A stretch of DNA of 35,782 nt from Candidatus Peregrinibacteria bacterium. Its GTDB lineage: Bacteria; Patescibacteriota; Gracilibacteria; CAIRYL01. The stretch lies in the NCBI GenBank assembly GCA_016220175.1, contig JACRHZ010000063.1:1-35782 (forward strand). Reading direction: 5' to 3'. Of the stretch, positions 4,842-9,638 are shown piece after piece. Position 1 is the stretch's first letter. Each line of letters begins with the position of its first letter. The translations under genes and the position numbers were made by a program. Under the pieces are notes generated by a model, which saw only the letters and a program-made list of their open reading frames with translations, was not told the DNA's origin and did no database searches.

Positions 4842-4858
4842 ATAATCTTTCTTTATAT

Positions 4859-5125
4859 ATGCATACCACTATTCCCGCAACAGATGCTCGAAAAATATTT
4901 TTTCAAATTATCAAAAAAAGTTCTAAACTTGGTTCACCGGTGACCATCACCGTTGATGGAGAGCCGAAGGTAGTAATGATTTCTGCCGAAGAATTTGAGG
5001 GATGGAAGGAAACTCTCGAAATACTCGCGGATAAAAAACTCATGAAAGGTATTGAAGAAGGACTCAGAGATTTGCAAGCAAAAAAGACATACACTCATGA
5101 AGAAGTGAAAAATATGTTTTTATAA
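4859..5125 (+). CDS. Antitoxin of Phd/YefM family
   Basis: 88 aa. The N-terminal part TTIPATDARKIFFQIIKK, then PVTITVDGEPKVVMISAEEFEGWKE, is the classic Phd/YefM fold: a DNA-binding dimer whose C-terminal tail (about 60-88) wraps the toxin. It precedes the toxin gene by 5 nt. The ATG at 4859 is chosen because the conserved domain begins there; an upstream extension would start inside the promoter. It probably represses its own promoter through the 4818-4841 inverted repeat. Confidence 0.85.
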   Translation: MHTTIPATDARKIFFQIIKKSSKLGSPVTITVDGEPKVVMISAEEFEGWKETLEILADKKLMKGIEEGLRDLQAKKTYTHEEVKNMFL

Positions 5126-5130
5126 GAGGC

Positions 5131-5385
5131 ATGAAATATTCAATTCTCTATTCTGCAAAAGCAGTACGAAGCTTGAAAAAAATTCCAAAAAACTGGCGAG
5201 AGAGAATTCTCGAAGCCATAGAAGAACTTTCTGAAAGTCCTTTTCTTGGAAAGAAGCTCAAAGGACCTCTTTCGGCAATGTATTCCCTTCGCCTGTGGCC
5301 GTACAGAATTCTCTACGTGATTCGGAAAAAAGAAGTCCAAATCGAAATTGTTGATGTGGACCATCGACAAAAGATATATGGATAA
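5131..5385 (+). CDS. RelE/ParE-family toxin
   Basis: 84 aa. The RelE/ParE fold is recognisable: YSILYSAKAVRSLKKIPKN (helix hairpin), then SPFLGKKLKGPLSAMYSLRLWPYRILYVI, and the basic end VDVDHRQKIYG, the typical RelE C-terminus with Arg, His and Tyr. Family members cleave mRNA on the ribosome or, for ParE, poison gyrase; RelE-type mRNA cleavage is more likely from the DHR..IY tail. It is co-transcribed with the antitoxin; AGAGG just before the ATG may be a weak ribosome binding site. Confidence 0.85.
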   Translation: MKYSILYSAKAVRSLKKIPKNWRERILEAIEELSESPFLGKKLKGPLSAMYSLRLWPYRILYVIRKKEVQIEIVDVDHRQKIYG

Positions 5386-5415: not shown

Positions 5416-5443
5416 TTGACTTTTGTCAAGAAACGTCTAAGAT
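5416..5443 (+). promoter_or_regulatory. Promoter of the Thr leader operon
   Basis: TTGACT (5416-5421), 16 nt, TAAGAT (5438-5443), start near 5450. An overlapping alternative is TTGTCA (5423-5428), 17 nt, CAATAT (5446-5451), start near 5458. Either gives a short 5' end ahead of the leader ORF at 5469. Confidence 0.65.
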
Positions 5444-5468
5444 GCCAATATCGTAATGCAAAAAAATA

Positions 5469-5549
5469 ATGTTCAGTTCCGAAAAATTTCTCAAGGCAAT
5501 ATCTTTAGTTTCTACAACTACGACCACAACACGAAAAGTGTGGAGGTAG
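5469..5549 (+). CDS. Threonine-rich leader peptide (26 aa) of an attenuator
   Basis: ATG at 5469, TAG at 5547-5549. Residues 16-21 are six consecutive threonines (codons 5514-5531, ACA ACT ACG ACC ACA ACA), resembling the enterobacterial thrL leader in logic. The six codons keep AC and use all four third bases, as expected if Thr itself is selected. A competing frame (5456-5560, 34 codons) would read the same stretch as six NAC codons in an AT-rich genome, which is less likely. The peptide ends just past the strand AGTGTGGAG (5537-5545) that can pair with the terminator. No Shine-Dalgarno is visible. Interpretation is by analogy; translation is not shown. Confidence 0.6.
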   Translation: MFSSEKFLKAISLVSTTTTTTRKVWR

Positions 5550-5609
5550 CGCGTATGTAAATTTTAAAAACAAGCGAACTCCACACTCATCTTAAGGTGG
5601 AGTTTTTTT
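5529..5609 (+). terminator. Transcription attenuator: competing hairpins plus intrinsic terminator
   Basis: The terminator stem AACTCCAC (5577-5584) / GTGGAGTT (5597-5604) has 8 bp and a 12-nt loop, and T residues run to 5609. The upstream AGTGTGGAG (5537-5545) is exactly complementary to CTCCACACT (5579-5587), giving a 9-bp antiterminator that excludes the terminator. ACAC (5529-5532), inside the last Thr codons, can pair with GTGT (5538-5541) over a GAAAA loop. So segments 1:2, 2:3 and 3:4 are arranged as in amino-acid attenuators: a ribosome stalled early in the Thr codons frees segment 2 and permits read-through. Confidence 0.7.
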
Positions 5610-5630
5610 ATATGTTTCAATTTTTTCACA

Positions 5631-5936
5631 ATGAATGAATACATGAGCATCAGAGGCCAATTCTGTCCGAATAAAAAATGTAAATTTTATCAGATTTCAT
5701 CGAATCGAAATGTCGTTATTCATTCTCAAAAAGAACACCGATTCCAATGTTCGAAATGTCAAAAAACTTGGGTCGCGCATAAAGATCAAATTTATTTTCG
5801 TCTCCGAAGTCCAAAAGAAAAAATTGATCTGGCTCTCATGCTTTTCGAATCTGGGAAAAGTGTGAGAGAAATTGCGAGAGAAGTGAAAGTGAGTCCGAGT
5901 ACGGTACAGAGGTGGAAATGCATTTCTTGTTCTTAA
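5631..5936 (+). CDS. Zinc-ribbon/HTH protein, like the N-terminal part of an IS1-type transposase
   Basis: 101 aa. Residues 12-43 form a zinc ribbon (CPNKKC ... CSKCQKTW), and residues 60-95 an HTH (KIDLALMLFESGKSVREIAREVKVSPSTVQRW). This order matches the DNA-binding half of IS1-like (InsA-type) transposases, but the DDE catalytic part is absent and the next gene starts 15 nt later. It could be a transposase remnant or a domesticated regulator. Its place, first behind the attenuator and 21 nt after the T-run, favours co-transcription with the next two genes. ATG at 5643 is a possible alternative start; neither has a clear ribosome binding site. Confidence 0.6.
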   Translation: MNEYMSIRGQFCPNKKCKFYQISSNRNVVIHSQKEHRFQCSKCQKTWVAHKDQIYFRLRSPKEKIDLALMLFESGKSVREIAREVKVSPSTVQRWKCISCS

Positions 5937-5951
5937 TATTTTTGTGTTTAT

Positions 5952-7091
5952 ATGCATTTAAAAATAGATTCATCTTTGGTTATAGACAATCTTCAAAGTG
6001 CTCGAGAACGCAAGGATTTACGAAAATTATTTTCTTCTCTTCCGAAAAACATTGGGCGTGTTGGAAATACAAATATTCCCTTGGAAGAATGGATGCATTG
6101 CAATACTGAAGATACCGAACAGGGAGATAAAAGATCGGGGGCGATATTAAAAGCAATATTAGCACCTGATGTTGAAAAGCCTGTGATTCAGGGAGAAAAT
6201 CAGCCTCTCATCTTTGGTGCCAGATCAATTCATGGATTGCTTAAAAATGCTCTCACGGAGCGCATCTGCATGAATGTGGGAATGAGCGCAGGAAGTCAAA
6301 TTTCTCCAATGCTTCCCGCATATTTAGAATTAGGCATACAAAGATTGAAGGAGTTGAAAGCTATTGTGCAAGACGTACATCTCAGATTTTTCAGTACGGC
6401 TTCACTTTCACCACATTTAAATGGAGCTGATCCTGAACAAGTAGCGAGAATTCAACGTGCACAGCATTCTTTGATTGGAGCGTATCTTGAACATTTTCAT
6501 TCTGAGCTTTTTCCATATATTAACTATTCTGATATTCAACAAGGAGTTCCTTTATTGTCCAAATCAGCACTTCAGGATCGCATTGATGCAATACGGAAAG
6601 ATGTTTCTGGAGAAATCCTGAAAAAATTAGAATCATGTGGTAACCATCATGGTGATGAGGTAGGGCAGAAAAATGCCTTGGCATATGCCGCGTATCATCC
6701 TCAACCCAGCTTATTTGCTGATGAGTCTAATGGGAGAAATATTATTTCCGTTGGTGGTCCAGGGGAAGCCCTGTTTAACGAAGTACGCTTTCTTCCTCAA
6801 TTTCAGAGGGCAGATCCAAATGTTGCGATTGTCGTTCCTCCAGGACTTATTAGCAGAACGCCTCCATATTTAGAGATACCAAATGGTCTATCTATGTCTG
6901 AATTTTTGGAGGGAAGTGATCGAGTTTTTGCCCTTCTCAAATCTCCAAAGGAAAATAAGCATCTTTTCCAAATTCCTGGAGCTCGTGATCTCCTTCATAT
7001 CGCTAAGTGTCTTTCTGGACGACAAGATCTCATAAGAGGACTAGAAATGCTCAGGTCTTTTTATGAAGAAACTTTTTCTCATATCCCATGA
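5952..7091 (+). CDS. Unrecognised 379-aa protein; possible divergent cyclodipeptide-synthase-like enzyme
   Basis: No family is certain. The middle resembles, from memory, cyclodipeptide synthases (CDPSs), which take aminoacyl groups from tRNAs. VGMSAGS (109-115) matches the nucleophile loop IGISAGN of AlbC, with Ser112 in place of the catalytic Ser37. IQR at 129-131 and DVH at 141-143 fall at nearly the same spacing as QR and DTH in AlbC. SLFADES (253-259) matches its PLFADSP. Against it: the acidic residue before that motif is not clearly kept (Tyr245/His249 are the candidates), Tyr202 seems to be Phe275, and there are about 75 extra N-terminal and 80 extra C-terminal residues. The stop overlaps the racemase start by 4 nt (ATGA). 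Codon use is richer in TTA and ATA than in thrS, hinting at transfer. Confidence 0.35.
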   Translation: MHLKIDSSLVIDNLQSARERKDLRKLFSSLPKNIGRVGNTNIPLEEWMHCNTEDTEQGDKRSGAILKAILAPDVEKPVIQGENQPLIFGARSIHGLLKNALTERICMNVGMSAGSQISPMLPAYLELGIQRLKELKAIVQDVHLRFFSTASLSPHLNGADPEQVARIQRAQHSLIGAYLEHFHSELFPYINYSDIQQGVPLLSKSALQDRIDAIRKDVSGEILKKLESCGNHHGDEVGQKNALAYAAYHPQPSLFADESNGRNIISVGGPGEALFNEVRFLPQFQRADPNVAIVVPPGLISRTPPYLEIPNGLSMSEFLEGSDRVFALLKSPKENKHLFQIPGARDLLHIAKCLSGRQDLIRGLEMLRSFYEETFSHIP

Positions 7092-7777
7092 AAAAAATTG
7101 GATTAATTGGAGGTGTTGGATGGCCTTCCACAATTGATTATTATCGAATAATTAATCAAGAGGCGAATAAAAAATTTGGGAATCTTTGTTCTCCAGAAAT
7201 TTTGATTTACAGTCTCAATTTTGAACCATTAATGCGTCTTCAATATCAAGGCAAATGGGAAGAAAGTGCCCAAGTATTAATACAAGCGGCACAAAGTCTT
7301 GAAAAAGCGGGAGCAGATTGTGTATTAATTTGCTCAGTCACCACAAATATACCTTCAAAACGGGTTCAAGAAAAAATTTCTATTCCACTTTTGAGCATTA
7401 TCACCCCATGCGCAAGAATTATTCAAAAAATGGGATTAAAAACAGTTGGTTTACTCGGAACAAAAGCAACAATGGGACATAGTTTTTTTCGAGATGGTCT
7501 CTCCAAGTTTGGAATTTCTGTAATAACTCCTGATGAATCTGAGAGAAATGTAATTCATAAAGTTATCTATAATGAACTTTGCAAGAATGAGATAAAAAGT
7601 GAATCAAGAGAAAAATATCTTAAGATAATTAATGCCTTAGTCTCGGTTGGTGCTGAAGGAGTTATTTTAGGCTGTACAGAGATCCCGTTACTTATATCCT
7701 CAGCTGACGTGAATATTCCTAGTTTTGATATCACTCATCTTCATGCGCTTGAAGCTTTCAATTTCGCTATAGAATAA
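7088..7777 (+). CDS. Aspartate/glutamate/hydantoin racemase family protein
   Basis: 229 aa. KKIGLIGGVGWPSTIDYYRIIN at the N-terminus is the standard aspartate-racemase opening (GGMGP..T..Y). The two catalytic cysteines of cofactor-independent racemases fit Cys in VLICSVTTNI (near 81) and in VILGCTEIPLL (near 198). Family members interconvert L- and D-Asp or Glu, or related acids. The first Cys motif usually reads CNTAH or CNTMH and here is CSVTTN, so the substrate may differ. It is translationally coupled to the 379-aa gene (4-nt overlap). Codon use is AT-rich (TTA, ATA, AAT), unlike thrS downstream. Confidence 0.75.
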   Translation: MKKIGLIGGVGWPSTIDYYRIINQEANKKFGNLCSPEILIYSLNFEPLMRLQYQGKWEESAQVLIQAAQSLEKAGADCVLICSVTTNIPSKRVQEKISIPLLSIITPCARIIQKMGLKTVGLLGTKATMGHSFFRDGLSKFGISVITPDESERNVIHKVIYNELCKNEIKSESREKYLKIINALVSVGAEGVILGCTEIPLLISSADVNIPSFDITHLHALEAFNFAIE

Positions 7778-7793
7778 TCTTAAAGCCTTGAAA

Positions 7794-7823
7794 AATAAGG
7801 GCTGAAAATTTTCAGCCCTTATT
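7794..7823. terminator. 30-nt perfect palindrome after the racemase gene, probable terminator
   Basis: AATAAGGGCTGAAAA is followed directly by its exact reverse complement. It can form a GC-clamped hairpin ending in TTATT, a weak T-tract, 17 nt after the racemase stop. It separates the leader operon from thrS. Its sequence is unrelated to the GTAGAGAC family. Confidence 0.55.
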
Positions 7824-7856
7824 CCCAAAATCCCAATTTCTATTTTCCTCTGAACT

Positions 7857-7865
7857 CGCTACAAT
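7857..7865 (+). promoter_or_regulatory. Possible -10 of thrS
   Basis: CGCTACAAT contains TACAAT (7860-7865), 24 nt before the thrS ATG. The -35 region is poor (TTTCTA at about 17 nt). It is placed by position and by likeness to TGCTACACT at 3594-3602. Confidence 0.3.
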
Positions 7866-7889
7866 CTTTCCGAATTTAATTCACCAATC

Positions 7890-9638
7890 ATGTCCGCAAA
7901 CGATCTCGAAATTCGCCGAAAACATTCCGCATCGCACATTATGACCGCGGCAGTGAAAATGATCTATCCCAACGTAAAGCTTGGCGTTGGACCGTGGACC
8001 GATGAGGGATTTTATCAAGATTTTGATCTCGGAGACGTCAAAATTTCCGAAGCAGATTTTAAAGAAATTGAGAAAAAAATGCGCTGGATTGTGAATAAAA
8101 ATTTCCCGATTGTTCGCCATGAAACTGATTTTGAAACTGCACAGAAAATTTTTGAGGATGACCCGTATAAACAAGAACTCATGAAAGATCTCAAAGAAAA
8201 AGGCGAAACTGTCTATTCTTTTTATAATTTTGAAACGAATGCGGAAAAACCATTTTATATCGATTTTTGTGCTGGTCCGCACTTGAATTCCACGGGAGAA
8301 CTCGGAGTATTTAAACTCATGAGTGTTGCTGGTTCGTACTGGCGAGGAGATGAAAAAAGACCGATGCTCACGAGAATTTATGGAATCGCCTTTGCGACCA
8401 AAGAAGAGTTAGAAAAATATGAAAAAATGATCGAAGAAGCGAAAAAACGAGATCATCGAAAGCTCGGGAAAGAGCTCGAACTTTTTGCTTTTGATGATGA
8501 AATTGGTCCGGGCCTTCCGCTCTGGCTTCCGAATGGAGCGATCATTGTGGAAGAACTCGAAATTCTCGCGAAAGAAATGGAAGAAAAGTATGGATACAAA
8601 CGCGTTCGAACTCCGCATATCGCGAAAGAAGCTTTGTATCTCCGCTCAGGACATCTTCCGTATTACGCGGCATCCATGTTCCCGCCGATGGAAATGGATG
8701 AAGAAAAATATTATCTCAAGGCGATGAATTGCCCGCACCATCATAAAATTTACGCGGCGACATCAAAAAGTTATCGAGATCTTCCGCTCAGACTCGCGGA
8801 ATATGGACATTGCTATCGCTACGAAGATTCCGGAGCGCTCTTTGGACTCATGCGAGTTCGTTCGCTCTGTATGAATGATGCCCATCTCTATTGTACCGAA
8901 GAACAGTTTGAAGAAGAATTCACCAAAGTTATTGAAATGTATTTGTATTACTTCAAATTGTTTGGAATTGAAAAATATGAAATGCAGCTTTCAAAACATT
9001 CCAAAGAAGGACTGGGAAAAAAATATGTTGATGAGCCAGAACTCTGGATAAAAACAGAAGATCTCGTTCGAAAAGCTCTGACAAATGCAAAAGTGCCTTT
9101 TGTGGAAGCCGAGGATGAAGCAGCATTCTACGGTCCAAAAATTGACGTCCAGATTTGGTCAGTGATCGGTCGAGAATTTACCCTCGCCACGAATCAGCTC
9201 GATTTCGCCGTTCCAAAAAGATTCAATCTCACGTATATCGATCGAGATGGGTCTGAAAAAACTCCGATTTGCATCCATCGCGCACCACTCAGCACTCACG
9301 AACGCATGATCGGATTTCTCATTGAACATTATGCTGGGGCTTTTCCTGCCTGGCTTGCTCCTGTGCAATGCGCGATTTTGCCAATTGCGGAAGCACATGA
9401 AAAATACGCGAAAGAAATTTATGAAAAAATTCGTGAATTTGGCGGAAGAGTTGAAATTTATGAATCCAGTGAAAGTCTCGGAAAACGTATTCGAGAGGCT
9501 CAGACGCAAAAGATTCCGTTTACGCTCGTTTTGGGAGATAAGGAAAAGGAAGAAGGAATGGTGACAGTTCGAAAATATGGAGAGGAAAAACAGGAAAAAA
9601 TGAAGGTTGAAGAATTATTGCCCCTTTTGAAACGGTGA
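7890..9638 (+). CDS. thrS: Threonyl-tRNA synthetase lacking the TGS domain
   Basis: Charges tRNA-Thr. 582 aa, against about 640 in E. coli, because the N-terminal TGS domain is missing; the protein opens directly with the editing domain, HSASH (12-16) and CAGPH (127-131), which supply its four metal or catalytic residues. In the class II core, motif 2 is around RYEDSGALFGLMRVR (310-324) and motif 3 is HRAPLSTHERMIGFLIEH (463-480). The zinc ligands are Cys281, His332 and His463. The anticodon-binding domain follows from about 485. Loss of TGS is a feature I associate with reduced CPR genomes. It lies beside, but outside, the operon with the six-Thr leader. Confidence 0.96.
   Translation: MSANDLEIRRKHSASHIMTAAVKMIYPNVKLGVGPWTDEGFYQDFDLGDVKISEADFKEIEKKMRWIVNKNFPIVRHETDFETAQKIFEDDPYKQELMKDLKEKGETVYSFYNFETNAEKPFYIDFCAGPHLNSTGELGVFKLMSVAGSYWRGDEKRPMLTRIYGIAFATKEELEKYEKMIEEAKKRDHRKLGKELELFAFDDEIGPGLPLWLPNGAIIVEELEILAKEMEEKYGYKRVRTPHIAKEALYLRSGHLPYYAASMFPPMEMDEEKYYLKAMNCPHHHKIYAATSKSYRDLPLRLAEYGHCYRYEDSGALFGLMRVRSLCMNDAHLYCTEEQFEEEFTKVIEMYLYYFKLFGIEKYEMQLSKHSKEGLGKKYVDEPELWIKTEDLVRKALTNAKVPFVEAEDEAAFYGPKIDVQIWSVIGREFTLATNQLDFAVPKRFNLTYIDRDGSEKTPICIHRAPLSTHERMIGFLIEHYAGAFPAWLAPVQCAILPIAEAHEKYAKEIYEKIREFGGRVEIYESSESLGKRIREAQTQKIPFTLVLGDKEKEEGMVTVRKYGEEKQEKMKVEELLPLLKR

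Follow-up and report, generated by a model that had tools for sequence, protein, structure and literature searches.

The window (the whole stretch of 35,782 nucleotides that was analysed) contains a short leader region, followed by a zinc-ribbon protein gene, an orphan gene, a racemase gene and the gene of a threonyl-tRNA synthetase (ThrRS), thrS; the coordinates of these genes and of the elements of the leader are collected in Table 1. Directly 5' of the leader, at 4853-5385, is a Phd/YefM antitoxin and ParE-type toxin pair. The leader ORF has 26 codons and the translation MFSSEKFLKAISLVSTTTTTTRKVWR*, and the six consecutive Thr codons that it contains (ACA ACT ACG ACC ACA ACA) make use of all four third bases, as an earlier sequence-only reading of this DNA had claimed. 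The assignment of thrS is based on a TIGR00418 score of 657 bits (cut-off 384) and on the Pfam domains tRNA-synt_2b, HGTP_anticodon and tRNA_SAD. For the 379-residue orphan protein, no relatives have been found in 60 genomes of the class, in phages, plasmids and viral contigs or in the PDB, and its single-sequence structure model (pLDDT 34.5) is unusable.

Table 1. Features of the leader region and of the genes that follow it in the window.
Feature	Position	Strand	Basis or remark
Candidate promoter TTGACT-N16-TAAGAT, 25 nt 5' of the leader ATG	5416..5443	+	consensus match 9/12
Leader peptide ORF, MFSSEKFLKAISLVSTTTTTTRKVWR*	5469..5549	+	translation; frame with close stop in 33/33 leaders tested; no Shine-Dalgarno
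Thr-codon run (putative sensor)	5514..5531	+	Thr runs precede thrS in relatives
1:2 (pause/protector) hairpin	5518..5549	+	-10.4 kcal/mol, z -3.6, window only
Antiterminator 2:3, arms 5537-5545 and 5579-5587	5537..5587	+	z -3.5; duplex p=0.003
Intrinsic terminator 3:4, arms 5576-5587 and 5595-5605, T7 5603-5609	5576..5609	+	-12.4 kcal/mol, z -4.0
Small zinc-ribbon and HTH protein, IS1 InsA-like N-part, first gene after the attenuator	5631..5936	+	weak family matches
Orphan 379-aa protein	5952..7091	+	no family matches or relatives
Asp/Glu-type amino acid racemase	7088..7777	+	TIGR00035, 198 bits
Perfect 15-bp inverted repeat in the racemase/thrS gap; possible weak terminator	7794..7823	+	-18.9 kcal/mol
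Threonyl-tRNA synthetase gene thrS, fourth after the attenuator and its presumed (ancestral) target	7890..9638	+	Pfam and TIGR00418

The folding of the leader was compared with that of 200 dinucleotide shuffles. The antiterminator, formed by segment 2 (AGTGTGGAG) and segment 3 (CTCCACACT), reaches -20.7 kcal/mol within 5505-5592, a value that none of the 200 shuffles equals, and in a separate duplex test it scores -20.4 against -8.0 for the shuffles, its p value being the smallest attainable there. The terminator is likewise equalled by none of the 200 shuffles; it had escaped a simple scan solely through its loop of more than 8 nt. Segment 3 is common to both structures, i.e. the antiterminator and the terminator are mutually exclusive, so that the 9-bp antiterminator, the terminator that it excludes and the T-run that follows, all of them proposed by the sequence-only reading, have been confirmed. 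A third hairpin (1:2), with arms at 5518-5530 and 5538-5549, passes through the Thr codons. The fold of the whole 186-nt leader is ordinary (z -0.35), as is expected for helices that are mutually exclusive. What had been taken for a good promoter is retained as a candidate only, given that sites with such a score are no commoner in the window than in shuffles (13 found, 13.6 expected); across the leaders described below, promoter scores are modestly above those of shuffles, with scores of at least 9 in 43% against 21%.

The nearest named relatives of the window ThrRS belong to the Gracilibacteria/Peregrinibacteria, which supports the earlier attribution of this Thr leader-peptide attenuator to a bacterium of the CPR. 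A DNA similarity search with the window leader in 60 relatives has not found homologous leaders; because the leaders are too diverged for such a search, the DNA upstream of thrS was read instead, in 55 genomes of the class and at 79 named loci. In 14 of the 55 genomes, 5 or more Thr in 8 codons occur in a short ORF at most 320 bp from thrS; for other amino acids the corresponding number of genomes is 0-3, and of 572 control blocks taken at the same loci just 1 has such a Thr run. Examples are MKSTTTTTTTTTE (L047), MMHLGTTTTTTTSQ (L084), MYICLTTTTTTTTTTI (L149) and MKFFATTTTTTTVTPEQV (L095); at the locus of the closest relative (L091, 71% ThrRS identity), the leader is located directly 5' of thrS.

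A pattern search that was blind to thrS (five Thr codons, 47-77 nt, then TTTTT; 353 genomes of the class) gave, among the 50 loci examined, 16 matches with thrS at +98 to +179 nt, all of them with an in-frame stop 21-39 nt past the start of the match, while the remaining matches are mostly inside longer coding or repetitive stretches. Two clear leader-like matches have no adjacent thrS: the window and locus L326 (genome G246), where an intact Thr leader (MNRLSFVTTTTTTTTSLRNRG*) and a terminator at about 1750-1960 are followed by 4 kb in which no thrS was found. Outside the class, one further thrS leader (L348) was found among 380 genomes sampled across the phylum. In another class (genome G617, locus L390, about 330-1225; also L350), a Thr leader (MNKIFLTTTTTTIFFSY*) with a terminator directly precedes a SerB-like HAD phosphatase gene. 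In six loci of Chloroflexota (Anaerolineae; L156, L159, L160, L162, L164 and L168), a conserved short ORF, MTxDxTxITxxRLGG, is located 55-160 nt before thrS, with no T-run terminator evident; it is possibly another Thr-rich thrS leader, acting at a different step.

The distribution of the leader, mapped on a 58-row ThrRS tree, needs 12 changes, against a mean of 17 for shuffled distributions, and 9 changes are forced by well-supported branches; the distribution is clustered but patchy, with only some thrS genes carrying a leader. The window ThrRS groups with those of L091 and L097 and apart from those of its own GTDB family, and its position outside the clade of that family indicates that thrS has been exchanged.

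The operon after the leader had been thought to lack an obvious threonine biosynthesis gene; it is not without a threonine gene, however, as thrS is the fourth gene downstream in the window and is located directly 3' of the leader in relatives. We consider it likely that the window attenuator controls thrS itself, with read-through that would have to cross about 2.3-2.4 kb, i.e. three genes and the hairpin at 7794-7823. The best-surviving alternative, which is possible if somewhat doubtful, is that a genuine attenuator has lost its coupling to thrS and now serves the HTH, orphan and racemase genes, with thrS starting on its own past this hairpin. The hairpin is strong and separates the racemase gene from thrS; the leader is away from thrS in L326 too, and a Thr leader precedes the SerB-like gene in the other class; moreover, the clade of the window ThrRS differs from that of its own family, and the neighbourhood has therefore been rearranged. 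Against uncoupling, the four genes are on one strand with short gaps, no consensus promoter has been found in 7779-7890, and the tail that follows the GGGCTG/CAGCCC core of the repeat (TTATTCCC) is poor in T and ill-suited to termination on the + strand; the signals of the leader are intact, so that it is not a decayed relic. A search for flanking inverted repeats, such as would delimit a mobile element carrying the three intervening genes, found none.

Leaders before other synthetase genes were sought with a strand-aware scan of 10-15 genomes, in which some loci lacked upstream sequence. Besides those of thrS, cognate leaders were found only before valS (G057) and hisS (G024); within the same scope, none is evident for the phe, trp, tyr, ile, leu, ser and pro synthetase genes. 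Among 18 valS genes from the family of G057, 7 have a run of 4 or more Val in 8 codons before them, and 9 a Val leader (at least 3 Val) with a G+C-rich hairpin and a T-run, e.g. MKLSVVVVVNPT, MNQPVVVVVTPN and MKNASRPSFSQVVVVVD*; two of the terminators had been overlooked by the automatic finder. Before hisS, a His leader occurs in G024 (MIQKLSHHHSHFIHLI*) and probably also in G029 (MKYFSNISIHHHLF*). The antiterminator test of the Val and His leaders is individually weak, with a combined p value of 0.0009. Of the comparative arguments for the sensing of charged tRNA, the strongest is that the codon of the leader changes with the target gene.

The same change of codons with the target gene bears on a second alternative, according to which the region is a tRNA-binding leader of the T-box type, or a ThrRS-binding operator like that of E. 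coli, and the Thr ORF is incidental. Both are known controls of thrS, and the likeness to the T-box thrS leaders of Firmicutes and to the autoregulation of E. coli ThrRS is that the same gene is regulated by the level of Thr-tRNA or of ThrRS. The T-box senses through the binding of uncharged tRNA and E. coli thrS through the binding of ThrRS, neither of them through ribosome stalling. Neither the Rfam families T-box and Thr_leader nor any other Rfam family is matched in 20 leader loci or in the leader of the window, which as a whole gives two tRNA genes only. Taken with the Val and His versions, this makes the second alternative very unlikely.

The reading frame of the leaders was compared in 33 of them, a test that is partly circular, as many leaders had been chosen through their own Thr ORF. 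The Thr frame has a start codon in 32 of the 33 (ATG in 30) and a stop at most 30 nt from the run in all 33, whereas in the two remaining frames an ATG is present in 1 and 6 leaders and the stop position is not fixed. At least three kinds of Thr codon occur in 28 of the 33 runs and no run consists of a single codon; this mixing of synonymous codons indicates that it is the peptide, not a DNA repeat, that is under selection. The overlapping frame 5456-5560, with its Tyr, Asn and His codons, had been noted as a weak point and does exist in the window, where it is open, starts closer to the candidate -10 element and ends just past segment 2; it is not kept in relatives, however, and shifted ACN runs yield Tyr, Asn and His codons automatically. 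Since it is thrS that is located downstream, and leaders of this kind are absent from all the Tyr and Trp synthetase genes sampled, we find it extremely improbable that this frame encodes the relevant peptide. The lack of a Shine-Dalgarno site, the other weak point that had been raised, is genuine, but a Shine-Dalgarno-like site is lacking in all 35 leaders inspected, so that its absence is a feature of the group and not a defect of the window leader. In some leaders, a strong TTGACA/TATAAT-like pair ends 6-10 nt 5' of the start codon, a spacing which suggests that they may be translated in a leaderless or nearly leaderless manner.

The exclusive pairing was also compared across relatives, in the 30 leaders with an automatically found terminator. 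Segment 3 pairs around the stop codon better than dinucleotide shuffles at p<0.05 in 25 of the 30 (Fisher combination 4e-29, with the leaders treated as independent and their relatedness ignored). Segment 2 is found between about -26 and +20 nt relative to the stop codon, at or beside it, i.e. at a position that a terminating ribosome would cover. The paired sequences differ between leaders (AGTGTGGAG in the window, CGGAGGTTC in L054, TGGTAGGAG in L300 and its kin, TGCAGAGGGTA in L060, TTAGAGGGATTTTGTAA in L083), which means that complementarity has been kept despite sequence change; the comparison of relatives that had been proposed as a check on the ACN run and on both pairings has thus shown the Thr codons, their frame and both pairings to persist. 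An ordinary terminator beside a chance Thr-rich ORF, although terminator-like sites are not rarer in shuffles and the whole-leader folding energy is unremarkable, is scarcely credible next to the 1/572 rate of Thr-run ORFs in control blocks, the retention of the leader before thrS in relatives, the exclusive pairing and the mixing of codons.

We conclude, with a probability of about 0.87, that transcription is attenuated at the leader by a ribosome-mediated mechanism which responds to charged tRNA-Thr, and that attenuators of this type precede thrS in Gracilibacteria and related Patescibacteria. The leader, its codons, the exclusive pairings, the terminator, their conservation and the neighbouring thrS of relatives are seen in the DNA, and the hallmarks of a classical attenuator are found together: the codon run, the shared segment 3, the placement of the stop, the 1:2 hairpin (in the window only) and a cognate target gene. 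Judging from this anatomy and from established attenuation, the leader would be translated and would terminate transcription in response to Thr-tRNA. With ample Thr-tRNA, the ribosome would translate all six Thr codons, reach the TAG at 5547-5549 and cover segment 2; segment 3 would then pair with segment 4, and RNA polymerase would stop near 5609. With scarce Thr-tRNA, the ribosome would stall on the Thr codons, allowing the 2:3 pairing, so that the terminator would not form and transcription would continue; the read-through would raise ThrRS, a homeostatic response.

Among known systems, the thrABC leader of Proteobacteria (Rfam Thr_leader) resembles the leaders described here in its Thr-codon peptide and alternative hairpins; it controls biosynthesis and mixes Thr and Ile codons. 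The classical attenuators before synthetase genes are those of pheST in gamma-proteobacteria and of trpS and leuS in Streptomyces (PMC1262725), which share with ours a leader peptide of cognate codons, an antiterminator and a terminator before the gene of an aminoacyl-tRNA synthetase; here, in contrast, the genes are thrS, valS and hisS, the phylum is Patescibacteria and the leaders have no Shine-Dalgarno site, the likeness meant here being one of layout. In Bacilli, a His leader peptide precedes the hisS paralogs hisS*/hisZ, and the 2010 survey that added the Bacilli states that such leader systems were previously known only from Proteobacteria and Actinobacteria; ThrRS autoregulation is mentioned there as well (PMC2965389). 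The Bacilli systems are similar in having His codons and a terminator before a gene of a synthetase family, whereas in the phylum studied here the His leaders are rare and the Thr leaders dominant. The literature searched, with few subscription papers and no preprints, describes neither leader peptides for thrS or valS nor any attenuator from Patescibacteria; the attenuation mechanism itself is known, and what is new here is the targets thrS and valS and the phylum.

More broadly, we lean, with moderate confidence, towards the view that Patescibacteria, chiefly Gracilibacteria, balance thrS, valS and hisS by cognate attenuators that are read without a Shine-Dalgarno site, have been repeatedly gained and lost and have sometimes moved to other genes. 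Leader-peptide attenuation would thereby extend to Patescibacteria, and to thrS and valS; if true, this would add a level of regulation not yet described to a phylum for which very few regulators are known, implying coupled transcription and translation and control by tRNA charging in largely uncultivated, often host-dependent cells. The leaders would be ready reporters of amino-acid starvation, readable from metatranscriptomes, and their patchiness, along with their recurrence on different synthetase genes, would make them suitable for testing how frequently switches of this kind originate afresh or are relocated.
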